Assembly: GCF_963675635.1 (NCBI RefSeq)
Contig: NZ_OY776488.1
Location: 1,835,501-1,899,500, forward strand
DNA from: an uncultured Pseudodesulfovibrio sp.
GTDB taxonomy: Bacteria; Desulfobacterota; Desulfovibrionia; Desulfovibrionales; Desulfovibrionaceae
Length of the DNA stretch: 64,000 bases
Reading direction: 5' to 3'
Each line of letters opens with the position of its first letter. The stretch's first letter is position 1. Position numbers and translations under genes: made by a program. Shown here in pieces: positions 1-10,757 of this stretch. The notes under the pieces were generated by a model. The model was given only the letters and a program-made list of their open reading frames with translations, ran no database searches and was not told the DNA's origin.

Positions 1-593
1 CGGCACGAATCCAGGTCATTGCCCGAGATGAAGAGAACCTGCTTTGGATTACGTTGTCACACCTCAACGCCTGCAAGGCGTGCAAAGGAGTACCAGTCAG
101 GGGCAACGAAGTTCTTTCTTCCTCGGCTGTCAGCAAGGCCATGCAAAAATGTTCCACGGTCAAGGAACTCCTGGAAAGCATGCTCAAGGCACTGCCGCAG
201 AATTCCCCCACGGACGCAATCATGCTTTCAAAGATATTCATCGACGAGGGTATCGTTTCCGTCACCGGGGTCGGAGAACCATTCGGCGGCGAGCTGGAGG
301 ATCTGATACATCCTTACGACGGCTCTATTGCCAAGAATATCGTACGCTTCGAACTCGATAAGCATGTGGTCATGGAGACCTCGAAAAGCATCAAGCCCAT
401 TGACTGGGCACTCTTCATTCCACACGGCATTCACTCCTATTATGCGCAACCTTTTTTTAAAGACGGCATTCTGACCTGCGTTCTCATTTTCTGTTCAACG
501 CAGAAAGGGAGTTATGATCCGGATGCAGATGCGCCCCTGTCTGCAATCCATCAGGAATTTTTCAATCAACTGGAACGTTGCCTGAAGAAATAA
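1..593 (+). CDS. C-terminal part of a GAF-like sensory protein (5' end outside window)
   Basis: The reading frame is open from base 3 of the window to the TAA at 591-593, with no obvious start and ribosome site, so the gene begins upstream. The visible ~196 residues start with a short segment containing CKACKG, then an alpha/beta region whose hydrophobic strand pattern (IFIDEGIVSVTG, then YAQPFFKDGILTCVLIFCS) resembles a GAF-type ligand-binding domain. This is a fold impression, not a family match. The end is helical (EFFNQLERCLKK). It could be the output end of a regulator or sensor. A terminator-like hairpin follows at 631-671. The ligand is unknown. Confidence 0.6.
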   Translation, partial: ARIQVIARDEENLLWITLSHLNACKACKGVPVRGNEVLSSSAVSKAMQKCSTVKELLESMLKALPQNSPTDAIMLSKIFIDEGIVSVTGVGEPFGGELEDLIHPYDGSIAKNIVRFELDKHVVMETSKSIKPIDWALFIPHGIHSYYAQPFFKDGILTCVLIFCSTQKGSYDPDADAPLSAIHQEFFNQLERCLKK

Positions 594-603
594 CCACCAC
601 TTC

Positions 604-614
604 TGGTCCAACCA
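604..614 (+). promoter_or_regulatory. GntR-type operator copy 1
   Basis: TGGTCCAACCA is an imperfect dyad of the TGGTnnnACCA form typical of FadR/LldR-subfamily GntR repressors. The same 11-mer recurs exactly at 766-776 and, inverted, at 872-882. This copy lies just after the upstream gene's stop and before its terminator-like hairpin. Confidence 0.55.
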
Positions 615-630
615 AAAGGACCGATTATGA

Positions 631-671
631 CAACAGTGTGCCAGACCACTTTCTGACACACTGTTTTTTTA
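631..671 (+). terminator. Rho-independent terminator of the upstream gene
   Basis: A stem of about 14 bp (AACAGTGTGCCAGA against TCTGACACACTGTT, one mismatch) closes a short loop and runs into seven T residues. It sits about 40 bases after the stop of the GAF-like gene. Confidence 0.75.
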
Positions 672-747
672 TTGGACTCTACCAACAATGTACCCATAAT
701 TTATACACATTATTCTAGATAGTTACCGCAGCAGCAGTACACAACAA

Positions 748-794
748 CACAAAACAGTCTCAAACTGGTCCAACCAGTTTGAGACTGTTTTGTG
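748..794. promoter_or_regulatory. Perfect 22-bp inverted repeat centred on operator copy 2
   Basis: The arms 748-769 and 773-794 are perfect reverse complements with a 3-base centre, and the middle is TGGTCCAACCA (766-776), the operator also found at 604 and 872. The repeat ends in TTTT inside its second arm, so it could also act as a hairpin. The operator reading is preferred because the core is repeated exactly elsewhere in the same intergenic region. Confidence 0.65.
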
Positions 795-871
795 CCAAAA
801 GCCTTGCGCCAGCTGTTCAACACTCTTAAAACTGCATGAATTGAAAGAAAACACACAATAACACTTTAAAC

Positions 872-882
872 TGGTTGGACCA
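872..882 (-). promoter_or_regulatory. GntR-type operator copy 3, next to the start codon
   Basis: TGGTTGGACCA is the exact reverse complement of the operator at 604 and 766. It ends three bases before the ATG at 886, where a ribosome-binding site would lie, and no separate Shine-Dalgarno sequence is visible. Bound protein here would block transcription of the regulator gene, so autoregulation is likely. Confidence 0.6.
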
Positions 883-885
883 CAT

Positions 886-1563
886 ATGGCTTCTGCACAA
901 CGCCCCATACTTTGCCAAAAAGTGACTGCATTACTTCAAGGCGGCTCCTTTTCCATAGGAGATCGTCTGCCCGGTGAGCGCCGACTTGCTGAAATGTTTC
1001 AGACGAGTCGCAATACGATCAGGGAAGTGCTCTGCAACCTTGAGACCATGGGGTACCTTGAAATCAGGGAAAAAAGCGGCTGTTATCTGAAAAGCAAACA
1101 GGGGCGCATTTCCTGGGAAATGCTACGGAAACGCAAAAGCCAGACTGCCAATCACCAGTTGATTGAAACCCTCATGTTCTTCGCTCCACAATTGGCAAAA
1201 GCCGAGGCCTTGCGCCTTTCGCCAACAGACATCGCTTCTCTGGAAAAGGCCACGGCAAAGCTTGGTGAAGCTATCGTCAACTTCGACCTTCCCATGGTCA
1301 GCCGTCAATACATCGCCTTCTTCCTGGCGTTGGCCGAAGCCTCAGGCAACGACTATCTCATCCTGTTGATGAAAGAACTGTCCGTGGCTTCACAAAACCT
1401 TGAGCACGCAGGCACAGGCCTGTCCGAAGTGCAGATAGACTCACTTTTCGCCTACCATGTGGAGTTGTTCAACGCCCTGAAAAACGGGCAACCCGAACAG
1501 GCTGAGATTCTTGCCGAGCAGTGCATGTGGACGTTTCACCAACTCGTACTGCCGGAAAACTAG
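886..1563 (+). CDS. GntR-family (FadR/FCD-type) transcriptional regulator
   Basis: The 225-residue protein has an N-terminal winged helix of GntR type (residues ~8-70; GDRLPGERRLAEMF, then TSRNTIREVLCNLETMGYLEI) and an all-helical C-terminal half of ~145 residues consistent with an FCD ligand-binding domain. Members of this subfamily usually sense organic acids and bind TGGTnnnACCA dyads, and three such sites lie in the 290 bases upstream. The downstream genes to 7930 run the same way with short gaps, so they are its probable targets. The effector cannot be read from sequence. The start at 886 has no clear ribosome site because the operator overlaps that position. Confidence 0.85.
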   Translation: MASAQRPILCQKVTALLQGGSFSIGDRLPGERRLAEMFQTSRNTIREVLCNLETMGYLEIREKSGCYLKSKQGRISWEMLRKRKSQTANHQLIETLMFFAPQLAKAEALRLSPTDIASLEKATAKLGEAIVNFDLPMVSRQYIAFFLALAEASGNDYLILLMKELSVASQNLEHAGTGLSEVQIDSLFAYHVELFNALKNGQPEQAEILAEQCMWTFHQLVLPEN

Positions 1564-1596
1564 AGCGTATTCGCGCCACAATCAGCACAACACACC

Positions 1597-1815
1597 ATGA
1601 AACGAAGAGAATTTTTCAGCCGGTTCATTCCGAGAAAAGGGCACACCGAGGAGGTGGAGGGTGACGTTCAACAGCAGGAAAAGCCGAAAAAGGCACCCCT
1701 GACTGAGAATGAATGTTTCTTACGCGCCATGGCTCTCGGGATCGATCCGGCTACTGTAACGCCTGGGCAATTGGAAAAACTGGTTTCGGAATCTGAACCA
1801 TCAAAAAGAATGTAA
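1597..1815 (+). CDS. Small unknown protein, 72 residues
   Basis: This is a short charged protein beginning MKRREFFSRFIPRKG. The opening recalls a twin-arginine motif, but no hydrophobic stretch follows, so it is probably soluble and not exported. The middle is acidic and Gln/Lys rich, and the last 30 residues (ECFLRAMALGIDPATVTPGQ) look like a small helical domain. It sits 33 bases after the GntR gene and 64 before the membrane-protein gene. I recognise no family. A role as accessory factor for the following membrane protein or enzyme would be a guess from position only. Confidence 0.6.
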   Translation: MKRREFFSRFIPRKGHTEEVEGDVQQQEKPKKAPLTENECFLRAMALGIDPATVTPGQLEKLVSESEPSKRM

Positions 1816-1879
1816 AAGAGCATCGTTGGTTTACGAGGATTGATCACCCTCTCCAACAAACTCGCTAAAGGAATGTAAC

Positions 1880-3283
1880 ATGGACAACAGTAGTGTCAGC
1901 TATCTTGAGAGTCGAAAGCTGGTCAAACGTTGGAACGGGCCGATCCCGGCATTGATCAACACGATTGTCATTTTTGCTTTTTTTTATGCAACATGGTGGA
2001 TTTTTCAGGATCCGCGTGGCCTTATGCGCATGTATACACCCTATGTGGGTTACATGGTCTGCCGCTGGCTGCTGATTCTGTTTATTTGGGTCGCTTACAT
2101 CTTTGATTTCTGGCCCTTCAAACGAACCTGGCTTCAAAAAACACACCCCCTTGTCAAGGGAGCGGTGCTGATTCTCGTCAGTGTCGCGGCAATGGTCATC
2201 CTCATCAAGGGATTCTTCATTGGCGTACTTGGAAACTTCGGCATTGCCTATTTTGACCCGGCACGACTTGAAGCAATGGGACTCACCGACTTCTATGCCA
2301 TTGAGTATGCTGCAGAAGCCATCATGATGTTCGCAGCCATCGCCTCCTGGCTCTCTCCGAGCTGGGTAGTGGCCTGTGAAAACGCACCTTGGCAGAGCCT
2401 GAAACAGCCGGCACGAGGCATCACCATTGTTCTCGTGACCTTCTTCTTCAGCATGATCGTCTACTTCCTGACCATGCATTCGCACATGGCTATTCTCTTC
2501 TACCCCTGGCAGAAGTTCACGGCCATTTGTCCCCCCTACTGGGAAGAATTCGCTAACACTGTTTCCGGCAACTTCCACATTGCATGGATTATGTGCTGTA
2601 CGGTTGTTGTCTGGTTGTATGAAACCATTTGGGAACGCTATCCCTTCAACCTGATTAAGAATAACGCCTTGCGCCGGACCACTTCCTTCTTCGGAATCAT
2701 CGCCATCGCGTTGGCTCTGTGCTTCTTCTTGTATTACGCTCAGGACATTGTCTGGGGTGAGACCATTCGCGGTACCCGTCGCCTCATGGCTCCGGACTGG
2801 CGCTGGTTGCATGTAGGTGAAATGGCCATTTTCTGGCTGGTTCCGACCTTGTACCTCACCTTCTACTGCAATAACTGGCCGACCAAATTCAGCCGTCCGG
2901 TCAACGTGTGCATCCGTACTTTGCTGACCATTCTGCTCGCCGTGTTCGTGTACGTAGTCTACTACAAGACTTCTCACCTGTTCCTCGGCACCCAGAAAGG
3001 CTTCTCCCATCCCCAGCAGTTCCCCATGATTCCGATGATCTGGTTGATCAACATCTTCTTGGTCAACGTCTGGTTCATGGACGGCTGGCCGGGTTGGAAG
3101 GCTGTTCCCAAAACACAGGAAGAACTGGAAGAGATCAAGGAAGAAGTCGTCGCACATGACGTGAAATGGACTTCCGGCCTTGCCAAGGGTCTGGCTGTCG
3201 GACTGGCAGGTGGCGTGATTCTCTACTTCGCCATTATCAAGATCCTGCCGTGGATCAGCGCCAACTTCACCATCATCAAGTAA
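1880..3283 (+). CDS. Polytopic inner-membrane protein of unknown function
   Basis: The 467-residue protein has roughly 11 hydrophobic membrane spans, is rich in Trp, Phe and Tyr, and has a short acidic, Glu-rich cytoplasmic stretch (~residues 411-425, TQEELEEIKEEVV) before a last span. No transporter signature that I know is visible. AAAGGAATGTAAC precedes the ATG. The next gene encodes a Tat-exported metallo-beta-lactamase-fold enzyme 24 bases away, so the two may work together, for example as membrane anchor or permease for the periplasmic enzyme. That is inference from adjacency. A long antisense frame over this gene is taken as a codon-composition shadow. Confidence 0.75.
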   Translation: MDNSSVSYLESRKLVKRWNGPIPALINTIVIFAFFYATWWIFQDPRGLMRMYTPYVGYMVCRWLLILFIWVAYIFDFWPFKRTWLQKTHPLVKGAVLILVSVAAMVILIKGFFIGVLGNFGIAYFDPARLEAMGLTDFYAIEYAAEAIMMFAAIASWLSPSWVVACENAPWQSLKQPARGITIVLVTFFFSMIVYFLTMHSHMAILFYPWQKFTAICPPYWEEFANTVSGNFHIAWIMCCTVVVWLYETIWERYPFNLIKNNALRRTTSFFGIIAIALALCFFLYYAQDIVWGETIRGTRRLMAPDWRWLHVGEMAIFWLVPTLYLTFYCNNWPTKFSRPVNVCIRTLLTILLAVFVYVVYYKTSHLFLGTQKGFSHPQQFPMIPMIWLINIFLVNVWFMDGWPGWKAVPKTQEELEEIKEEVVAHDVKWTSGLAKGLAVGLAGGVILYFAIIKILPWISANFTIIK

Positions 3284-3307
3284 GCGCAGGGAACAAGGAG
3301 TAATAGT

Positions 3308-4477
3308 ATGAGTAACGATAAAAAGAACATCAGCAGACGCGACTTTGTGAAAGGTGCTGCTACAGGCGTTGTCGCTGGCGCATTCGCCGGCATGGGACTG
3401 TATTCCTACAGCCCCTGGGCCTATGACGCCATGCCGGAAATAGAACGTAAACAACAGGACTTCGGCACATGCCGCAGCGTCCGTGTCACCAACATCTCTG
3501 AAACCAGCTGGTTCAACAATGCGCACCTCATCGGTGACATCCACGAAGCAGGCGGTCTGTTGGTCAACCAGTATACCCTGAACTGGGCTCCGTTCGCCAA
3601 CGGCAAAGGGTCTGCAAAGGGATCATATGAAGAGGGCATCGGCTCCATCAAGGAGATGCTCCCCAACGACTTGAAAAAAGCCTGGGAAATCCAGAAGAAG
3701 CTGGCTTTGCACCCGGACAACCCGGGTGGATATTCCTGCCTCATCGAAGTGGAAGCATTGGACGGCACCATTCACAAGTACCTGCTGGACACCGGTTGGT
3801 CCTATGAATGGATGGAAGACAGCTTCAAGCGTGAGGGCATCGACAAGATGCTCCAGGAGCAGGAAATCGAAGCCCTGTTCATCTCGCATGAGCACTGGGA
3901 TCACTTCTGGGGTCTGCCCGTCACCGTGAAATACGACAACCGCATTCCGCTGTATGTGCACGACGGCTTCTACAAAGAAGGTCTCCAGTACATCAAGGAT
4001 TCCGGTTACAAAGGCGATCTGGTCATTGCTGACAAGCCAATCACGCAAATCATTCCCGGCATGGCACTTCTCAAGTTCGACGTGCCCATCATCAACCGCG
4101 TATTCGGCGAGACCTCTCTTGCCTTCAACGTCAAGGACCATGGGCTGGTGCTCATCTCCGGTTGTTGTCATCAGGGTATCCTGAAGTTTGCCGACTTTGC
4201 CTACACGAACCTGAAGTACGATAACGACAAGTTCTACGGCATTTATGGCGGACTGCACATCTCGCCCTTTGAGGACTGGGATCCCAAATACGACGACCTC
4301 GTGATCTCCCTCGGAGCTTGGGGTTTCGAACGTATCGGCTGCAACCATTGCACCGGACACCTTACCGCCAAAAAGTTCATTGAGGCAGGATATCCGGTCG
4401 TTCGCGGCACTGCGCGCTTCCGGTCCGCTTCGAAGGACTACCTTGGCAACGGCGATAAGATCAGCTTCGGCTGCTAA
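3308..4477 (+). CDS. Tat-exported metallo-beta-lactamase-fold hydrolase (MptA-like/COG1237-type)
   Basis: The 389-residue protein opens with a twin-arginine signal (SRRDFVKGAATGVVAGAFAG), so it should fold with its metals in the cytoplasm and be exported. The metal-binding core HEHWDHFWG lies near residue 197 (HxHxDH), followed by GCCHQG, YGGLH and NHCTGH. That order matches the branch containing enzymes annotated as dihydropterin ribofuranosyl-aminobenzene phosphate synthase-like, which are usually cytoplasmic and lack a Tat signal. The substrate is unknown. A clear AAGGAG site precedes the ATG. A 13-bp hairpin (4500-4527) separates it from the GTPase gene and may set relative expression. 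Confidence 0.8.
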   Translation: MSNDKKNISRRDFVKGAATGVVAGAFAGMGLYSYSPWAYDAMPEIERKQQDFGTCRSVRVTNISETSWFNNAHLIGDIHEAGGLLVNQYTLNWAPFANGKGSAKGSYEEGIGSIKEMLPNDLKKAWEIQKKLALHPDNPGGYSCLIEVEALDGTIHKYLLDTGWSYEWMEDSFKREGIDKMLQEQEIEALFISHEHWDHFWGLPVTVKYDNRIPLYVHDGFYKEGLQYIKDSGYKGDLVIADKPITQIIPGMALLKFDVPIINRVFGETSLAFNVKDHGLVLISGCCHQGILKFADFAYTNLKYDNDKFYGIYGGLHISPFEDWDPKYDDLVISLGAWGFERIGCNHCTGHLTAKKFIEAGYPVVRGTARFRSASKDYLGNGDKISFGC

Positions 4478-4499
4478 TCATTCCGAGTCATTCCAACAG

Positions 4500-4527
4500 T
4501 CCGGCCCGCTTTTCAAAGCGGGCCGGA
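4500..4527 (+). other. Strong intercistronic hairpin without a T tract
   Basis: Arms 4500-4512 and 4515-4527 are perfect 13-bp complements with a 2-base loop. The following bases are ACCCCAACAACG, so this is not a standard terminator. It may stabilise the upstream mRNA end or reduce read-through into the GTPase gene. Confidence 0.6.
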
Positions 4528-4546
4528 CCCCAACAACGAGACGAGC

Positions 4547-6373
4547 ATGAACCTTTCCGCAATTCTTCCCCCCCAGCGCAACAGAGACCGACAGATCAAC
4601 ATGCCGGAGATGGTGGCGAACTGCCTGTTGGCAGCATGCCAGCATGATGAATTCAAAAAGCTGGTAGGCTGGAAAGGCATGGCTGTCTGCCCTCGCGGCA
4701 AGCAGGCGTGGACCATGCGCATCCGCACACGTCCCGGCGTATTCGGTCTATGCACGGAACACGAAAGTTCTGACGAACTCGGACTTCATGCTGCTCTTGG
4801 ACTCTATTATTTCCCTGCCGAACAGGAACCGCTGCTCGACACCATGTCTCTTGCAGCCTACATGGCTGTTGTCCAACCTGACTACATTGACGCGCTTCGC
4901 CAGTTTTCCTCCAACGAGAAATGGGCTCACCCCTTCCGCGTTGGCAAGCTCGTCAGTTCCCTCAGCAGGGATGAAGACACTCTTTCCCTGCAACTGGAGG
5001 CACTGGACCGCAAGATCTGCATTGCCAAAGACGGTGTTTTAACCCCAGATGGACAGTGGGTCATTGCTCCAGGCCAGGCAGAAGAGGATATCCCGGCCCA
5101 CGCAATCGCCATGGATTTCATGCTCGTACTTGGCGCAGCCATTTCCAACGGCCTTGGCGAACCGCCATGTTGGTTCGGCAGAACTGAAACACCCGCACAA
5201 GCTTTTGGCTATGATGCACAGGGCAATCAATTCCCCATTTCACAAGAAATTTCGACGATCACGGATTCTCTCGGCTGGGGGAATGAAAACACGACAAAGA
5301 TACTCGCGTACCTGACAGTGCCGAAATTCAATATTTGCGGCGATGCACAGGAAAAACACCATTTCCCAGCGCCCATGGACACCGCACTGCTCTGGGAAAC
5401 ACACGATCTTTCTGCCCTCGCCAAGAGAGGGGAGCATGAATACGCCTTTGACAGCCGCCCCAGCCTGATTGTTCTCAGCGGCTTCCTTGGCGCAGGCAAA
5501 ACAACCTTCCTCAACCAGCTTTTGGAATATCACGCCGCACGCGACGAGCTGGTCGCCATCATTCAGAACGAGATCGGCCAGACCGGCGTTGACGGCAAAT
5601 TGCTCGAAGGTGACGACTCCATCATTGAATTGGATGAAGGATGTGTCTGCTGCACCCTGGCAGGCAATCTCTCGAAAGGCATTGAACAGCTCAAAAGCCG
5701 CTTCAAGCCCAAGGTTATCGTGTTGGAAACAACAGGACTCGCCAACCCGTTCAACATTCTGAACGAACTTGACGCACTGCGTCCGCAGGTACGCCTCGAT
5801 TCCATCACGACCGTGGTAGACGCACACAATGCCCCGGCACTCCTGAAAGAAAGCGACATTACCCGCGACCAGATAAAGGCCGCAGACACCATTATTCTCA
5901 ACAAATGCGATTTAATTTCCACGGAAGAACAACACGTACTGGTTGAGCATCTTCAAACCCTGAACAGTCGCGCCCTTCTGGTGAAGACCGAATACGGCGC
6001 AATCAATCCGGGGACACTGTACGATTTTGACCCACTCACGCAAAACATCGAGGGACTCCTTCCCGGCCTCCTCTCGCCCCCGAACCATACCCATGCCATG
6101 GAAGGGTTTATGTCCCGCCGTTTTGCCTTTCACGAACCCTTGAGTCGGGAAGACCTTCTTGGGCTGTTGAACACCCTCCCCAAAGAAGTATTCCGGCTCA
6201 AGGGGATCGTGAAAATCACGGACAGTGATGAGCATGAAGTGGTACAGTACGTCTCCGGGCGATATGAACTGTCTCGTCTCGGAAGTACTTTTGATGACGA
6301 CAGTTTTCTTGTGGCCATCGGCAGGGACATGGATGTCTCCATGCTCGAAGTACTTGAACGGAGGTATGCATGA
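4547..6373 (+). CDS. COG0523 (CobW/G3E) GTPase with a large unrecognised N-terminal region
   Basis: Residues ~300-608 form a G3E GTPase of the metal-chaperone type: P-loop FLGAGKTTFLNQL, the metal-binding GCVCC motif, ETTGLANP, NKCD for guanine recognition, then a CobW_C-like tail. Such proteins deliver or insert metal ions. The first ~300 residues belong to no family I recognise; they contain a few Cys residues and are not exported. Typical members have about 320-400 residues, so 608 is unusual. It is followed immediately by exbB with overlapping ends (6370-6373). A role in handling a metal for the Tat-exported enzyme or the TonB-driven import step is plausible but inferred. Confidence 0.85.
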   Translation: MNLSAILPPQRNRDRQINMPEMVANCLLAACQHDEFKKLVGWKGMAVCPRGKQAWTMRIRTRPGVFGLCTEHESSDELGLHAALGLYYFPAEQEPLLDTMSLAAYMAVVQPDYIDALRQFSSNEKWAHPFRVGKLVSSLSRDEDTLSLQLEALDRKICIAKDGVLTPDGQWVIAPGQAEEDIPAHAIAMDFMLVLGAAISNGLGEPPCWFGRTETPAQAFGYDAQGNQFPISQEISTITDSLGWGNENTTKILAYLTVPKFNICGDAQEKHHFPAPMDTALLWETHDLSALAKRGEHEYAFDSRPSLIVLSGFLGAGKTTFLNQLLEYHAARDELVAIIQNEIGQTGVDGKLLEGDDSIIELDEGCVCCTLAGNLSKGIEQLKSRFKPKVIVLETTGLANPFNILNELDALRPQVRLDSITTVVDAHNAPALLKESDITRDQIKAADTIILNKCDLISTEEQHVLVEHLQTLNSRALLVKTEYGAINPGTLYDFDPLTQNIEGLLPGLLSPPNHTHAMEGFMSRRFAFHEPLSREDLLGLLNTLPKEVFRLKGIVKITDSDEHEVVQYVSGRYELSRLGSTFDDDSFLVAIGRDMDVSMLEVLERRYA

Positions 6374-6957
6374 ACCTTCTGCAACAGGGCGGCTTCATGA
6401 TGTGGCCGCTCTTAGCTCTTTCCATTGCATCCCTTGCAGTCATGGCCGAACGGTTTGTGGTTTTCACCACTCGTCGCCTTCCCTCGACCACAACACTGAC
6501 ACCTATTTTTGATCTCTTCCAGACACAAGGAAGCAATGCGGCCCTGAACGAAGTGGAAGACATTGCCCCAACCTACCTCCTCCTGTTCAAGGCACTGTTC
6601 AGCGACCTGCCGATCCCTGCAAAGGAACAGAAAATCCACCGTGTCGGAGAAGAAGTCCTTTTCTCCTTTCGTCGCAGACTGGACTTTTTGGCAACCGTTG
6701 CCACCACGGCCCCGCTCATCGGGCTGCTTGGCACGGTCCTCGGCATGATCAATGCTTTTTCCCGGCTCTCTGCATCAGGCAATGTCGACATCACCATGCT
6801 TGCCGGTGGCATCTGGCAGGCTCTTATCACGACGGCTGCGGGCTTGAGTGTAGCAATCCCATCACTCCTGGCGCACCGCTGGTTCTGTCGGGAGTACGAC
6901 AAGACCGCGTTCGCCATGCAGCATATGTCCAACACCTTCCTTGAAGAGCGGAAATAG
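6370..6957 (+). CDS. exbB: ExbB/TolQ/MotA-type proton channel protein
   Basis: The 195-residue inner-membrane protein has three hydrophobic spans and the conserved segment TAPLIGLLGTVLGMINAF followed by GIWQALITTAAGLSVAIPSLL, characteristic of ExbB/TolQ. With ExbD it uses the proton gradient to energise TonB. The ATG overlaps the stop of the COG0523 gene, indicating translational coupling. ExbBD-TonB sets usually serve outer-membrane receptors for metal chelates, cobalamin or heme, but no TonB-dependent receptor gene is in the window, so the receptor must be elsewhere. Confidence 0.9.
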   Translation: MNLLQQGGFMMWPLLALSIASLAVMAERFVVFTTRRLPSTTTLTPIFDLFQTQGSNAALNEVEDIAPTYLLLFKALFSDLPIPAKEQKIHRVGEEVLFSFRRRLDFLATVATTAPLIGLLGTVLGMINAFSRLSASGNVDITMLAGGIWQALITTAAGLSVAIPSLLAHRWFCREYDKTAFAMQHMSNTFLEERK

Positions 6958-6965
6958 GCGGTTTC

Positions 6966-7406
6966 ATGATTTCCTTTGAGCAGAAGAGACCGCGCCCCGC
7001 TTCTCCGGATATTACGCCGCTATTGGACGTAGTGTTCATCCTGCTCATATTTTTTGTTGTTTCAACGGTGTTCACTGCAAAGGGCATGGAGATGGAACTT
7101 CCGCCAGCCGAAACTTCAAAACCTGTTTCCGGTAAATCCATGGAAATAGAACTACGGGCTAACGGCGATGTATTCTGCGACAGCAAGCCAACAACCCTGC
7201 TGTCCCTAGCCTACACATTGCAGTTCACGGCATCACAACCGCCTGCACAGCAACCGGCTCACATTCTCCTAAAATCAGCCCCGCAGGCACGGGTGGAACA
7301 ATTTGTCCGTATTGTGGACTTGGTCCGGTCCAACGGATTCAGCAATCTCGTTATCGCCACCAGCACCAAAGGAGAGGAAGCCGCACAGGCCGAGGCACGT
7401 CAATGA
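6966..7406 (+). CDS. exbD: ExbD/TolR biopolymer transport protein
   Basis: The 146-residue protein has one N-terminal span with the family signature PDITPLLDVVFILLIFFVVS, including the conserved Asp in the membrane helix that carries protons, followed by a periplasmic domain. The gene starts 8 bases after exbB and its TGA overlaps the tonB ATG (7403-7406). Confidence 0.9.
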   Translation: MISFEQKRPRPASPDITPLLDVVFILLIFFVVSTVFTAKGMEMELPPAETSKPVSGKSMEIELRANGDVFCDSKPTTLLSLAYTLQFTASQPPAQQPAHILLKSAPQARVEQFVRIVDLVRSNGFSNLVIATSTKGEEAAQAEARQ

Positions 7407-7930
7407 CCTCGCGGCAGATGCTCGGCGTATGCATTGTCCTGTCTCTCATGGTGCATATGCTCCTGTTGCAACAGGACTGGGGCCAGGAACCGGTTGTCAG
7501 TGGAGAACACATCGTTGTTCCACTGGATTTCGATGTCGCCGTCAAAACGCAGGGCAACGCCCTCGCCCTTGAGCAGGGTTTTGTAGAAAGCAATCCTGAC
7601 GACAGTTGTGAGGATACCGACAAACGACTGCGTCGACTGGCCTTGAAACACTACATCGCACAAGTCCATGAGGCCATTGATCGGCGCAAGTTCCTTCCAG
7701 GCAATGGAGACTTGTCTGGCCTCATAGGCAACGCCCTCTTTACATTTCACATCCTGCCCAACGATTCCTTTACCGACATCAGGCTCATTCGATCATCCGG
7801 CGACCCGCGCCTGGACCGCGCCGCTCTCCAGGCAATCAAGGCGGCCAGCAGTATGATACAGCGCCCAAAAATACTTCAGGGCCAAACATTCACAATGAAA
7901 ACAGCCGTCAAATATCAATACAGCATGTAA
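7403..7930 (+). CDS. tonB: TonB-family energy transducer
   Basis: The 175-residue protein has a single N-terminal membrane anchor (residues ~8-25), a short linker instead of the long Pro-rich region of enteric TonB, and a C-terminal TonB domain (residues ~95-175) with the pattern FHILPNDSFTDIRLIRSSG then LDRAALQAIKAAS. It transmits the ExbBD proton-driven force to an outer-membrane receptor. It closes the predicted operon that begins at 886 or 1597, and a very long inverted repeat follows at 7960-8017. Confidence 0.88.
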   Translation: MTSRQMLGVCIVLSLMVHMLLLQQDWGQEPVVSGEHIVVPLDFDVAVKTQGNALALEQGFVESNPDDSCEDTDKRLRRLALKHYIAQVHEAIDRRKFLPGNGDLSGLIGNALFTFHILPNDSFTDIRLIRSSGDPRLDRAALQAIKAASSMIQRPKILQGQTFTMKTAVKYQYSM

Positions 7931-8027: not shown

Positions 8028-8684
8028 CTATTTCAGGGCGTCAGCCACCACCTCATGGCCCAACCGATGCAACATCATTCCGATGCGCTCACCCTTTTTG
8101 GCTGTATCGCGATAATATATCAGCGCCTTCTCAATGATAACCAACGCCTCATCATCAGTGACACCCTTGGCAAGACGCAACCCCGGGGCTGCGCGATGGC
8201 GTGCGGAACCGCCGAAAAGGACATTCCACCCCTTGGCAATTCCCACCAGACCAATGTCACGCACAAAACTCAATCCACAGGCCATGCCGCAACCGGAAAC
8301 CCCGCTCTTCACCTTGAAAGGATACGGGCCATTGGCCTTGATGACTTCAAGCAGGCGGTCGCCAATCTCCCGAGTGTTCTGCTGACCATATTTGCACAGC
8401 TCGCCACCGGGGCAAACAGAAACACCTGGGGGACACTTCGGAATAGAACGGCCGAGAGCGGACACGACCTCATCAAGTATATCTTTTGACACGCCTTCCA
8501 GATTCATGCGCTGCCCGGTGGTTGCCCGAAGCGTAATTCCAGGGTGCGCCTCCATGACTCCTATGACACTTCTAGTCATGCCTGGAGTCAGTAACCCCTG
8601 ATTGAGGCATAAACGAAGGGCATATGTACCGTCCTTCCTTTCTATCGGCATAACTGTCACGGACTCAGAGCTTATTGAAACCAT
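8028..8684 (-). CDS. Small assimilatory-type siroheme sulfite reductase
   Basis: The 218-residue protein has the nitrite/sulfite reductase half-domain followed by the coupled siroheme/[4Fe-4S] cysteine motif: CPGGELCKYG (residues ~92-100) and GCGMACG (~130-136). It matches the 27-kDa single-subunit assimilatory-type sulfite reductase known from Desulfovibrio vulgaris in length and motif layout. It reduces sulfite to sulfide in vitro; its role beside the dissimilatory enzyme is uncertain. An AAGGAG site lies seven bases before the ATG at 8684. The gene is transcribed alone, convergent with tonB and divergent from hydA. Confidence 0.85.
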   Translation of the reverse strand: MVSISSESVTVMPIERKDGTYALRLCLNQGLLTPGMTRSVIGVMEAHPGITLRATTGQRMNLEGVSKDILDEVVSALGRSIPKCPPGVSVCPGGELCKYGQQNTREIGDRLLEVIKANGPYPFKVKSGVSGCGMACGLSFVRDIGLVGIAKGWNVLFGGSARHRAAPGLRLAKGVTDDEALVIIEKALIYYRDTAKKGERIGMMLHRLGHEVVADALK

Positions 8685-9064
8685 TAACTATCTCCTTACT
8701 ATAAACATTGCCCTCTCTGGCCAGAAACGGCTCCTCCATCAATGCAATGGAGAGGCTTTCCAGAGGAGGGAAGATCATCGAGATTTAAAACGAAATCCTC
8801 TCATATACGATCCTTCTCAACACGCATGTGCGGAGTGTACGCAATTCCCCACACACTTCTAGGCTGTTTTACACTTATTTCACGGCATATAAAGGATACG
8901 AGCGCACACAGTACACACCACGACGAAATTATTATCATCTCTTCCGAAAAGCAGTCTTGACACGACTATGACTTTTAAAATAGTAGCCGTATAGTGTTAC
9001 TATTTTCAATTTCGTGTTAATTGATGGTATATCTCATACCGTGATTAGCAAAGGAGGGTATCCA
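8685..9064. other. Divergent intergenic region between the sulfite reductase and hydA
   Basis: These 380 bases contain no supportable gene. The part near the sulfite reductase holds a small hairpin (CTCCAT/ATGGAG around 8732-8750). The hydA side holds a possible promoter and a dyad, listed separately. The SD sequence AAGGAGG for hydA is at about 9050-9057. Confidence 0.5.
8957..9006 (+). promoter_or_regulatory. Predicted hydA promoter with overlapping dyad
   Basis: A consensus -35 box TTGACA lies at 8957-8962; with 16-bp spacing the -10 is AATAGT (4 of 6). A 9-bp inverted repeat, AAAATAGTA at 8977-8985 and TACTATTTT at 8998-9006, overlaps the -10 region and start site, where a repressor would act. 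The regulator is unknown. Confidence 0.4.
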
Positions 9065-10405
9065 ATGTCTGGATGCACACCAAAGTCGTCACCGGTTGTT
9101 ACGCCGGTCGACCTTTCTTCAGTCCACCCGAACAAGGAGGGAACAATGAAACTGATTGAAGGCGTCATGTACCAAAACAACGCACCCAAAGGGATTGACC
9201 CGGACAATATCTATTTCGTCCAGGTTGATGCCACAAAGTGTGAAGCTTGCGGTTCATGCGAAGAAGTTTGCGCGACAGGCGCAATTCAATCAATTAATGA
9301 GGACGGTATTCGGCAGGTTGTTGATCCGGCAGCCTGCATGAACTGCGGCCAATGCCTGACCAATTGTCCTTACGGCGCCATCTACGAAGGCGTTTCCTAT
9401 GTCGATGAAATCTTTGAAAAGCTCAAAGACCCTGACACCATCGTCGTGTCCATGCCCGCTCCCGCGGTTCGCTATGGTCTGGGCGAATGTTTCGGTGCGC
9501 CGACCGGCACCTATGTCGGCGGGAAAATGCATACGGCCTTGCGTCAGCTCGGCTTCAACTACATATGGGACAACGAGTTCACCGCCGATGTGACCATCAT
9601 GGAAGAAGGCACCGAACTCATTCAGCGTGTTCAGGAACAGGGCAAAGAAGGCGCTCGTCCGCTGCCTCAGTTCACATCGTGCTGTCCTGGCTGGGTCAAG
9701 TTCACCGAGACCTTCTACCCGGATCTGCTGCCGAACCTGTCCAGCTGCAAGTCTCCCATCGGCATGCTGGGACCGCTGGCCAAGACATACGGTGCGCATG
9801 AAACACACACCGAAGCCAAGAAAATCTATACAGTGTCCATCATGCCCTGTATCGCCAAGAAGTATGAAGGCCTCAGGCCGGAGCTGGCTGACAGCGGCTT
9901 CCGTGACACCGATGCCACCATCAACACCCGTGAACTTGCCTACATGATCAAGACAGCGGGCATCAACTTCAACAGCCTGCCTGACCAGAAACCCGACGCG
10001 GTTCTGGGTGACTCAACTGGCGCAGCAACCATCTTCGGCACCAGTGGCGGTGTCATGGAAGCAGCCCTGAGACTGGCTTATGAAGTGCTTTCCGGCAAGA
10101 AACTGAGCGATCCGAACATCAAGGTTGTTCGTACCCACGAAGGTATCAATACCGCCGATGTTGAAGTACCCGGTTTCGGCACGGTCAAGATTGCCGTGGC
10201 AAGCGGACTCGATAATGCCGCCAAACTGTGTGATGAAGTCAGGGCAGGTAAATCGCCTTATCACTTCATTGAAATCATGACCTGTCCCGGTGGTTGTGTG
10301 AACGGCGGTGGCCAGCCCATTGATCCGGACATCACAGCATCCCTGTTCAGCAGCACGGTAGCCCAGATTAACAAGCGCTTCCGGGCACGCAAGATCACGG
10401 CATAA
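9065..10405 (+). CDS. hydA: Periplasmic [FeFe] hydrogenase large subunit
   Basis: The 446-residue protein has two ferredoxin-type [4Fe-4S] motifs (CEACGSCEEVC from residue ~59 and CMNCGQCLTNCP) and the three H-cluster motifs TSCCPGW, MPCIAKKYE and TCPGGCVNGGGQP, so it is a catalytic hydrogen-activating subunit. It lacks its own signal; in the Desulfovibrio enzyme export depends on the Tat signal of the small subunit, which follows here by 13 bases. Two in-frame starts each have a strong AAGGAGG site: 9065 (used here) and 9146, which would give 419 residues and matches the usual N-terminus more closely. Confidence 0.93.
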   Translation: MSGCTPKSSPVVTPVDLSSVHPNKEGTMKLIEGVMYQNNAPKGIDPDNIYFVQVDATKCEACGSCEEVCATGAIQSINEDGIRQVVDPAACMNCGQCLTNCPYGAIYEGVSYVDEIFEKLKDPDTIVVSMPAPAVRYGLGECFGAPTGTYVGGKMHTALRQLGFNYIWDNEFTADVTIMEEGTELIQRVQEQGKEGARPLPQFTSCCPGWVKFTETFYPDLLPNLSSCKSPIGMLGPLAKTYGAHETHTEAKKIYTVSIMPCIAKKYEGLRPELADSGFRDTDATINTRELAYMIKTAGINFNSLPDQKPDAVLGDSTGAATIFGTSGGVMEAALRLAYEVLSGKKLSDPNIKVVRTHEGINTADVEVPGFGTVKIAVASGLDNAAKLCDEVRAGKSPYHFIEIMTCPGGCVNGGGQPIDPDITASLFSSTVAQINKRFRARKITA

Positions 10406-10418
10406 GGAGAGATACGAT

Positions 10419-10757
10419 ATGAAAATGAACAGACGCGGTTTCATCAAAACCTGCGGATTCATGGCCGGTTACGCAGTTCTTGGCGTAAACATCACCAAAG
10501 AAGCCATAGCCAGTACCATGAGCTTCGTGGGCCTGCGCCAGAAGTCCGTGTACGACGCGGATGCCAACTCGAAGATTTACGCGATCAGAAAGTCTCAGGA
10601 CAATCCCATGATCAAGAAAATCTACGACAAGAAAGACGGCTTCCTGCATGAAGGACCGTGCGGACACATGTCCCACCACCTGCTGCACACGCATTATATT
10701 GATCGTAGCGCCAAGGCTGCCGCTCTCAAGAGCAAGGGCTTCAAACTGAAATTCTAA
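10419..10757 (+). CDS. hydB: [FeFe] hydrogenase small subunit with Tat signal
   Basis: The 112-residue protein starts with a twin-arginine signal (NRRGFIKTCGFMAGYAVLG), which carries the folded HydAB dimer to the periplasm. The mature part resembles the small subunit that wraps around HydA in Desulfovibrio enzymes, with a GPCGHMSHHLLHTHY segment near its C-terminal half. GGAGAGATACGAT precedes the ATG. It is separated by 13 bases from hydA and the pair is co-transcribed. Confidence 0.92.
   Translation: MKMNRRGFIKTCGFMAGYAVLGVNITKEAIASTMSFVGLRQKSVYDADANSKIYAIRKSQDNPMIKKIYDKKDGFLHEGPCGHMSHHLLHTHYIDRSAKAAALKSKGFKLKF

Follow-up and report, generated by a model that had tools for sequence, protein, structure and literature searches.

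A conserved, so far unnamed locus joining a membrane protein of no described family, a Tat-type metallo-hydrolase and a COG0523 GTPase fusion

Do the nine genes at the start of the window (the whole 64,000-nucleotide stretch of Pseudodesulfovibrio DNA analyzed here) belong to one functional module, and what might such a module do? The first-pass annotation read them as a TonB-energised system for the import and processing of a metal complex or cofactor. The nine genes, the Tat signal, the GTPase with its extra N-terminal domain and the three identical operators all lie where that annotation had placed them. All genes are on the forward strand, with short gaps or 4-base overlaps between the last eight (ORF list). 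The features are:

3..593, + strand, PAS-domain protein, C-terminal part (the frame runs off the window start), an associated regulator
604..614, + strand, operator 1, TGGTCCAACCA, just past the PAS gene stop
766..776, + strand, operator 2, TGGTCCAACCA, at the centre of a perfect inverted repeat
872..882, - strand, operator 3, TGGTCCAACCA, ending 3 bases before the GntR ATG
886..1563, + strand, FadR/FCD-type GntR regulator (PF00392 53 bits, PF07729 51.3 bits)
1597..1815, + strand, 72-aa protein with the pattern SRRxFF ... EAxRLGIDP
1880..3283, + strand, MP, a polytopic membrane protein of 467 aa with about 11 long helices and no described family
3308..4477, + strand, Tat-type MBL-fold metallo-hydrolase of 389 aa, expected metal-ligand His/Asp invariant
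4547..5446, + strand, first 300 residues of the GTPase fusion, a domain of no family with a confident AF2 model
5447..6373, + strand, GTPase of the COG0523/CobW type with its C-terminal domain; intact P-loop and CxCC
6370..6957, + strand, ExbB/TolQ-family proton channel (MotA_ExbB match), optional accessory
6966..7406, + strand, ExbD/TolR-family protein (ExbD match), optional accessory
7403..7930, + strand, TonB-like protein of 175 aa (TonB_C) with a short linker containing three prolines, optional accessory

Group 1 comprises 73 distinct loci, the window included. The Tat-type MBL protein follows MP in 72 of these, the sole miss (L063) ending at a contig end, and the fused COG0523 protein follows the MP-MBL pair in 68. 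Three of the COG0523 misses (L042, L063, and L073) are cut by contig or fetch ends; in L062 and L064, the gene lies about 4 kb off on the opposite strand. The gene order seen at first pass recurs within the Desulfovibrionales and beyond, the genes being kept together across other Desulfobacterota, Alphaproteobacteria and Deferribacterota, and the metal-handling GTPase is a near-constant partner of the set. Distance-matrix correlations, uncorrected for the species tree, are 0.89 for MP-MBL, 0.83 for MP-COG0523 and 0.94 for COG0523-GntR, against only 0.49 for MP-TonB. The locus encodes a conserved module, unnamed to date, whose core has four parts: the small protein, MP, the Tat-type MBL protein and the metal-insertion protein.

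The regulator carries both a GntR helix-turn-helix and an FCD domain over cut-off, and occurs in 56 of the 73 loci. An operator of the form TGGT-N3-ACCA is typical of this family. The three TGGTCCAACCA sites, at 604(+), 766(+) and 872(-), are exact, fall less than 280 bases apart and all sit between the PAS gene (end 593) and GntR (start 886). A chance estimate tolerating one mismatch gives a mean of 1.41 sites in the window, with at least three in 15 of 100 shuffles. Exact copies in the whole genome number five; of the remaining two, one falls within a coding frame and the other where a further FCD-type regulator gene begins. Among relatives, at least one TGGTnnnACCA site, 1.6 to 0.85 kb before MP, is present in 44 of the 53 GntR-type loci whose upstream sequence is long enough and in none of the 11 loci without GntR (9 of the 73, too short upstream, were set aside); the background expectation is 0.0135 per 750 bases. 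The operator does recur. Operator 3 is likely an autoregulation site. The perfect inverted repeat around operator 2 (748-794) has 22-nt arms, which are absent in L036, the relative compared. The operators had been described as preceding the whole gene set; they are indeed identical and recurrent, but the PAS gene is upstream of them and for that reason is probably a separate unit. Found in 52 of the 73 loci, this gene is complete (about 425 aa) in relatives, such as the full-length L036:7438-8712, which gave PAS matches only and no recognised output domain. A NifX-like (FeMo-cofactor-domain-like) gene lies upstream in 7 of the 15 group-1 loci without GntR, and this favours metal-cluster handling over carboxylates.

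The MBL protein belongs to the MBL fold by PF00753 (Lactamase_B, 24.4 bits, cut-off 22.7, E 3.2e-5), and falls just under the cut-off of PF12706 (26.3, cut-off 27). As a Tat substrate it scores 25.2 bits against TIGR01409 (NCBIfam, cut-off 16.7), although 19.1 against Pfam TAT_signal PF10518 is under the cut-off of 22.7; the twin arginines R10/R11 are present in at least 90% of 23 sequences. In the same 23, three of them from the more distant group 2, residues H194, H196, D198, H199, H288, H317 and H347 are invariant. Profile comparison finds relatives of solved structure in superfamily chains 7dck, 2p4z and 3h3e (E 8.7e-18 to 1.4e-5), which we take to be COG1237-like.

The fusion gene (4547-6373) encodes 608 aa, of which the cobW and CobW_C matches begin only at residue 308; the N-terminal 300 residues match no Pfam or NCBIfam family. 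The remainder is a COG0523/CobW-type G3E protein (PF02492, 154.1 bits). Across 51 GTPase sequences, G312, F313, L314, G315, G317 and K318 are conserved throughout, as is the CxCC motif (C366, C368, C369), and NKxD is nearly so (N452 48/51, K453 51/51, D455 49/51). By equivalog score the protein is neither CobW proper (TIGR02475, 109.1 against a cut-off of 332.1) nor ZigA (NF038288, 105.1 against 600). With a mean column identity of 39%, it evolves far faster than MP (70%) or the MBL protein (63%), whereas a tight fit to the MBL protein would predict otherwise; this runs against its reading as an insertase.

The 72-aa protein matches no family in Pfam or NCBIfam. By eye, no hydrophobic stretch follows its RR, so it is not an obvious Tat signal. 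It recurs in groups 1 and 2, being found by a weak profile in 50 of the 73 group-1 loci. MP, as first reported, belongs to no family in the Pfam and NCBIfam libraries, and has neither a match among PDB sequences nor a clear PDB-fold match. Its two best Foldseek rows, 6f0k_C and 6btm_C (E 0.03, TM-score <=0.16), are too weak to use, though both are subunits of the respiratory Alternative complex III and not of a carrier.

Two distant groups extend the MP family. In 35 chosen sequences (14 from group 1, all 8 from group 2 and 13 from group 3), H311, Y361 and Y362 are present in 35/35, and E314 and R346 in 33/35. Group 2 (L081-L083, L128-L132), in which MP identity is 26-28% where measured, also has the core, here in the form MBL-MP together with the small protein and a free-standing N-domain. 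The latter matches the N-domain of the fusion with a probability of 97.3 and E of 1.7e-11 over 221 columns, in a profile comparison with only three sequences on one side. Five of these N-domains end in a C-x-C tail and three do not. No GTPase is fused to them or found beside MP in the eight loci, so not every version can depend on GTP hydrolysis. In group 3 (13 loci), a gene for a thiolase, acyl-CoA dehydrogenase, AMP-binding ligase or methylmalonyl-CoA mutase adjoins MP or lies one ORF away in 9 of the 9 loci put to a Pfam test, all picked for looking acyl-CoA-associated. Two more fit by eye only (ligase-like in L084; mutase-like, with one ORF between, in L123), no acyl-CoA gene was recognised in L122, and L127 is a 3.3-kb contig. 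Group-3 MPs are remote (the genome search gave E values mostly between 1e-9 and 1e-16), and this weighs on any idea of a carboxylate substrate, which draws on them.

With a probability of roughly 0.4, we favour a reading in which a dedicated insertase loads the MBL protein with metal before Tat export, and the MBL protein and MP then act jointly on a compound, perhaps one bearing a carboxylate. The COG0523 protein would be this insertase, with its N-terminal domain recognising the client and its GTPase half delivering Zn or Fe to the MBL metal site. Since Tat carries proteins that are already folded, delivery would take place in the cytoplasm. Once exported, the loaded MBL protein would work alongside MP in the periplasm and hydrolyse a compound that MP either hands to it or receives from it. 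Organic acids, or their esters, lactones or thioesters, would be the favoured compounds, since group-3 MP adjoins acyl-CoA genes and small carboxylates are the usual ligands of FCD regulators. The regulator may repress the operon and its own gene via the three operators until a ligand appears.

A doubtful reading, although the best of the alternatives, makes MP an enzyme of the membrane or a protein of electron transfer, with the MBL protein as its biosynthetic partner (COG1237-like, compare the RFA-P synthase annotation); the module would then make or modify an envelope-bound cofactor or lipid and transport nothing. The conservation of MP (70% over 31 rows, with many invariant Trp, His, Arg and Glu) is unusual for a carrier, and the Alternative complex III rows and upstream NifX-like genes noted above would suit such a role, as would a small cytochrome-c-like gene directly before MBL in L131 and L132 (by eye). 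One group-3 MP, the only one tested, reaches 25.2 bits against Abhydrolase_9_N, under its cut-off of 27, and has no NCBIfam match. However, MP shows no family over cut-off or clear fold, acyl-CoA neighbours suit transport equally well, and the COG1237 label reflects motif likeness together with the PDB relatives.

TonB-energised uptake of a metal complex or cofactor by way of an outer-membrane receptor, with the periplasmic MBL protein trimming it, MP passing it inward and COG0523 handling the metal, is unlikely. The last three genes do follow COG0523 in the window, and the TonB-like protein is a family member (TIGR01352, 36.7 against 27.1; PF03544, 34.3 against 24.6). ExbB and ExbD fall under the equivalog cut-offs for exbB (60.5 against 206.2), tolQ (88.8 against 221), ExbD_2 (43.1 against 123.45) and tolR (47.1 against 127.3). 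The trio occurs in 34 of the 73 loci, or 34 of the 65 with enough downstream sequence, but is missing from the other 31, and its presence switches at least nine times on the MP tree without cut rows (10 with them). A receptor is present somewhere in 55 of the 63 genomes searched, out of 75 that are MP-positive. The other eight have neither a Plug-domain nor a beta-barrel match, although the barrel profile also missed the Plug-positive receptor of the window genome and a divergent receptor could escape. Six of the eight (G131, G146, G184, G187, G206, and G210) carry the cassette's TonB, which argues that receptor-driven import is not core. No receptor gene occurs in the window's locus; the single Plug-domain receptor of that genome follows an M16 peptidase-like gene (by eye), about 13 kb from another TonB gene. 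In G156 and G167, a receptor does occur 1.2-1.4 kb past the cassette's TonB on its downstream side, and L062 has a receptor-like frame at a distance of about 6.5 kb from MP, but by eye the G156 receptor sits amid AraC regulator-, methyltransferase- and ABC transporter-like genes and is probably a separate island. Of the first-pass interpretation, the joint retention of the genes, the operator, the absence of MP from the family libraries searched and the GTPase partner are supported, whereas TonB-energised import, as stated, is not.

Under the insertase reading, ExbB-ExbD-TonB would add proton-motive-force energy in about half of the loci. With no TonB-dependent receptor seen in some hosts, its target may instead be the MBL/MP assembly or a different partner in the envelope. 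We think it improbable, taken as one joint claim, that this is a new envelope module whose own insertase loads the hydrolase ahead of Tat export and whose TonB-ExbB-ExbD motor, with no outer-membrane receptor, then drives the hydrolase in the periplasm by acting on the MP/MBL assembly, with MP founding a membrane-protein superfamily that also serves acyl-CoA pathways in Desulfobacterota, and with MP and the GTPase N-terminal domain representing two undescribed folds. Least probable of all is a metal-homeostasis cassette, with the MBL protein as back-up enzyme, that metal limitation would switch on as it does Zur-controlled COG0523 genes: a link of COG0523 proteins to zinc limitation is common (PMC2770081), but the regulator here is an FCD-GntR protein.

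The tightly kept module marks a real annotation gap, being present in several phyla with two parts outside Pfam and NCBIfam that lack clear solved relatives. It lends itself to a clean test of metal loading ahead of Tat export, and the cassette's TonB offers, where no receptor is detected, a test of TonB work beyond outer-membrane import.

Compared with other systems, group-3 MP of the Desulfobacterota shares the superfamily by profile and residues, but has no MBL protein, small protein or COG0523 labelled nearby. Known ExbB-ExbD-TonB energy transduction is matched in Pfam by all three proteins, and TonB passes the C-terminal domain model TIGR01352; the differences are that ExbB and ExbD fall short of both TonB- and Tol-system equivalogs, that TonB is short, and that the trio is optional and can be present even where a genome has no receptor detected. 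The MBL protein keeps the HxHxDH motif and later His ligands of its profile relatives 7dck, 2p4z and 3h3e, but differs in its Tat signal, its genetic coupling to MP and about 140 N-terminal residues outside the matches, with an invariant ISETSWF motif. A COG0523 insertase dedicated to one adjoining client is already known, as described for the Nha3 (P44K/P47K) activator of Fe-type nitrile hydratase, and the likeness lies in a CxCC COG0523 GTPase adjoining a single client metalloenzyme (PMC2770081). Unlike Nha3, the GTPase of the window carries a 300-residue N-terminal domain, its candidate client is a Tat-type MBL protein, and its locus has a membrane protein of no described family as a constant partner.

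The cassette under study lies in a genome represented by a single contig of 3.52 Mb, and its surroundings in the window are laid out as follows.

3-7930, + strand (ORF calls): a partial PAS-protein gene, then GntR, a 72-aa protein, a membrane protein (MP, 467 aa), a Tat-type metallo-beta-lactamase-fold protein (MBL, 389 aa), a COG0523 GTPase fusion (608 aa), ExbB, ExbD and TonB
604, 766 and 872: three exact sites of the operator TGGTCCAACCA, each between the PAS gene and GntR
748-794: a perfect inverted repeat with 22-nt arms, centred on the second operator
8028-8684, - strand: a 218-aa protein, by eye small sulfite/nitrite-reductase-like, between TonB and the hydrogenase genes
9014-10757: genes we take, by eye, to be FeFe-hydrogenase-like, encoding 463-aa large-subunit-like and 112-aa small-subunit-like proteins
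from the hydrogenase genes to about 16222: presumably radical-SAM genes of the HydG/HydE kind (by eye)

Pfam and NCBIfam assign a family to every cassette protein but two, MP and the 72-aa protein, and leave the first 300 residues of the GTPase unassigned; the name of the PAS protein in the window is taken from its full-length relative. Among rows of the MP tree, the closest named relative of the window is a Pseudodesulfovibrio MAG (locus L036). There, the PAS protein (L036:7438-8715) has no recognised output domain, and its C-terminal region carries the motif IKPIDWALFIP, as it does in the window and L074. The 218-aa protein occupies the same place in L036. In the window, L036, L075 and L086, a FeFe-hydrogenase-like frame lies no more than about 7 kb away from MP, in more than one arrangement; we take this as an observation and not as a link to the module.

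In a sample of 297 genomes from the order, 75, spread over 21 of 55 genera, carry MP relatives, three of them remote relatives only; a phylum-wide sample of 395 genomes gave 33 carriers, with the three MP groups mixed. A scan of GTDB contigs added 32 loci with MP relatives, including some from Alphaproteobacteria, Deferribacterota and one Bacillota MAG; plasmids returned no MP relative up to an E-value of 1e-3. Surrounding stretches of many MP loci were fetched, open frames called, and the frames labelled by profile. Loci of the window's kind (group 1) were counted after removal of duplicates (77 rows reduced to 73), leaving aside L046, whose MP is in pieces, the more distant groups 2 and 3, and L001-L035, L096-L114, L140 and L141, which hold no MP. 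MBL adjoins MP in 72 of these 73 distinct loci, the single miss being cut by a contig or fetch end. The fused COG0523 protein is present in 68; three of the five misses are likewise cut by contig or fetch ends, and in the other two (L062 and L064) COG0523 lies about 4 kb off on the opposite strand. Gene order, whose recurrence the first-pass annotation proposed to check, is kept elsewhere. GntR occurs in 56 of 73 loci, the PAS protein in 52, and the small protein in 50, a lower bound because its profile is weak. ExbB, ExbD and TonB are each found in 34 of 73, or 34 of 65 once eight of the 39 TonB-less loci are removed as too short to judge, their sequence ending less than 6.6 kb after the MP start. 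Six of the 17 loci lacking GntR have less than 1.5 kb upstream, and L089 and L136 have almost none. The module is real and widely conserved, and no name for it was found in the libraries and literature searched.

The operator also recurs across relatives. TGGTnnnACCA is found upstream in 44 of 53 GntR-type loci versus none of 11 other loci, nine loci being set aside as too short, where 0.0135 is expected from the remainder of the same sequence. The regulon was dropped as a clue to the ligand because the operator has just two further exact copies, the first at the start of another FCD-type regulator gene and the second inside a coding frame. The inverted repeat at 748-794 could be a terminator or an extended operator; it was dropped as a special element since L036 lacks the long arms.

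Of three aligned proteins, MP and MBL are the two most conserved, with mean column identities of 70% and 63%, against 39% for COG0523. In MBL, whose closest relatives of solved structure are the chains 7dck, 2p4z and 3h3e, residues H194, H196, D198 and H199 (HxHxDH), H288, H317 and H347 are invariant in 23 sequences, three from the distant group, so that an active metal site is expected from the conserved ligands. The GTPase has an intact P-loop, NKxD and CxCC; its N-domain is modelled confidently (pLDDT 91.4), with no clear match in the PDB. The MP model (pLDDT 82.8, pTM 0.86) has about 11 long helices, and MP has no PDB relative by sequence and no clear one by fold: the top two Foldseek rows are Alternative complex III subunits (E 0.03, TM-score at most 0.16). 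Across 35 chosen MP sequences of all three groups, H311, Y361 and Y362 are kept in 35 and E314 and R346 in 33, a pattern that fits a polar site inside the membrane.

Because proteins cross by the Tat pathway in folded form, a metal enzyme exported this way can acquire its metal in the cytoplasm, and the near-constant COG0523 partner is best read, for that reason, as an insertase. A dedicated COG0523 insertase beside its client is known from Nha3 and nitrile hydratase, as described in the main text of PMC2770081, and by analogy the COG0523 protein would be the metal insertase of MBL. Its N-domain, which occurs both with and without the GTPase, would be the part that recognises the client or partner, and MP and MBL together would form a working device at the inner membrane. 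This proposed insertase-client arrangement is the reading we tentatively favour. In the eight loci of group 2 (L081-L083, L128-L132), where MP identity is just 26-28% where measured, MP and MBL are accompanied by a small protein and a 236-336-aa protein without a GTPase. The latter is a free-standing version of the N-domain found in the GTPase fusion (profile match probability 97.3, E 1.7e-11, from the three sequences of L081-L083); a C-x-C tail ends five of the eight and is absent from the other three. Two group-2 loci have a gene, by eye small cytochrome-c-like, before MBL. In L082 and L083, an NtrC-like regulator and a histidine kinase adjoin the MBL-MP genes. The kinase carries an ABC-type substrate-binding domain (L082:3865-6633, coordinates with MP turned to +, and L083:3611-6349), PF04392 in a search of L083. 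Its sensor might reveal the class of ligand.

As to what the device handles, organic acids or their derivatives are the favoured candidates, on the basis of the FCD regulator and the acyl-CoA neighbours of group 3:

group 3 MP, 13 loci in Desulfobacterota: L115-L123, L125-L127 and L084

No MBL is labelled near MP in this group, and one group-3 MP put to Pfam and NCBIfam matched no family over cut-off. In nine loci, picked for Pfam since their neighbours looked acyl-CoA-like, a thiolase, acyl-CoA dehydrogenase, AMP-binding ligase or methylmalonyl-CoA mutase lies beside MP or one ORF off. L084 and L123 have acyl-CoA-type neighbours by eye only, none was recognised in L122, and L127 is too short to judge.

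Metal clusters, rather than organic acids, are argued for as cargo by NifX-like (FeMo-cofactor domain) genes. Of 15 GntR-less loci, a count that excludes L089 and L136 because they are cut just upstream of MP, 7 have such a gene directly before MP, versus none of the 58 others:

NifX-like gene, 0.4-1.0 kb upstream of MP: L051, L052, L057, L059, L062, L064 and L124

One NifX-like member put to Pfam fell below the family cut-off. A NifU-like gene lies about 1 kb upstream of MP in L049 and farther upstream in L062. None of the 15 GntR-less loci has TonB, 13 being long enough downstream to judge. PAS/sigma-54 activator genes, considered as the regulators of the GntR-less type, occur within 7 kb in 8 of the 15 but are not exclusive to it, being present in 5 of 56 GntR-type loci as well. 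The cassette travels. In the MP tree (81 rows, quick method), copies from Rhodobium, Rhodoplanes and other Alphaproteobacteria are nested in the clade that holds the window's type; those of Pseudovibrio fall inside another clade mixing Desulfovibrionales with other Desulfobacterota. TonB presence changes at least nine times with cut rows removed, and seven genomes of the order-wide sample (G058, G146, G156, G167, G177, G197 and G238) hold one copy of each type.

The TonB part had earlier been taken to energise import of a metal complex or cofactor through a receptor encoded elsewhere. A receptor lies within the locus in 3 of 73 group-1 loci, and a Plug-domain match was found in 55 of 63 MP-positive genomes searched, the other 12 of 75 being fragmentary, less complete or with remote MP matches only. 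The remaining eight genomes are negative with the barrel profile too, and six of them (G131, G146, G184, G187, G206 and G210) carry ExbB-ExbD-TonB in the cassette. A divergent receptor may be present there, as the barrel profile missed even the Plug-positive receptor of the window's genome. This receptor adjoins an M16-peptidase-like gene, and a second TonB gene, with a higher score, is located about 13 kb away from it. Two genomes, G156 and G167, have a receptor 1.2-1.4 kb downstream of the cassette. In G156, the TonB gene of the cassette is immediately followed (L135:7262-13847) by AraC-regulator-, TonB-dependent-receptor-, methyltransferase- and NMT1-type-ABC-transporter-like genes, a possible metallophore system; the receptor is likewise present in G167 (L136). 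With TonB in 34 of 65 loci, cassette TonB in six genomes without a detected receptor, and receptors near the cassette in only a few, the case for import is weaker than before: some loci may use their TonB part for uptake through a receptor, but this is not the purpose of the module.

No description of such a locus was found in the PMC literature among the matches listed, and the main text of PMC2770081 makes no mention of Desulfovibrio, Rhodobium, an N-terminal extension, fused or fusion, or beta-lactamase. The module is a known logic, a dedicated insertase with its client enzyme and an optional TonB motor, newly combined around an undescribed membrane protein.
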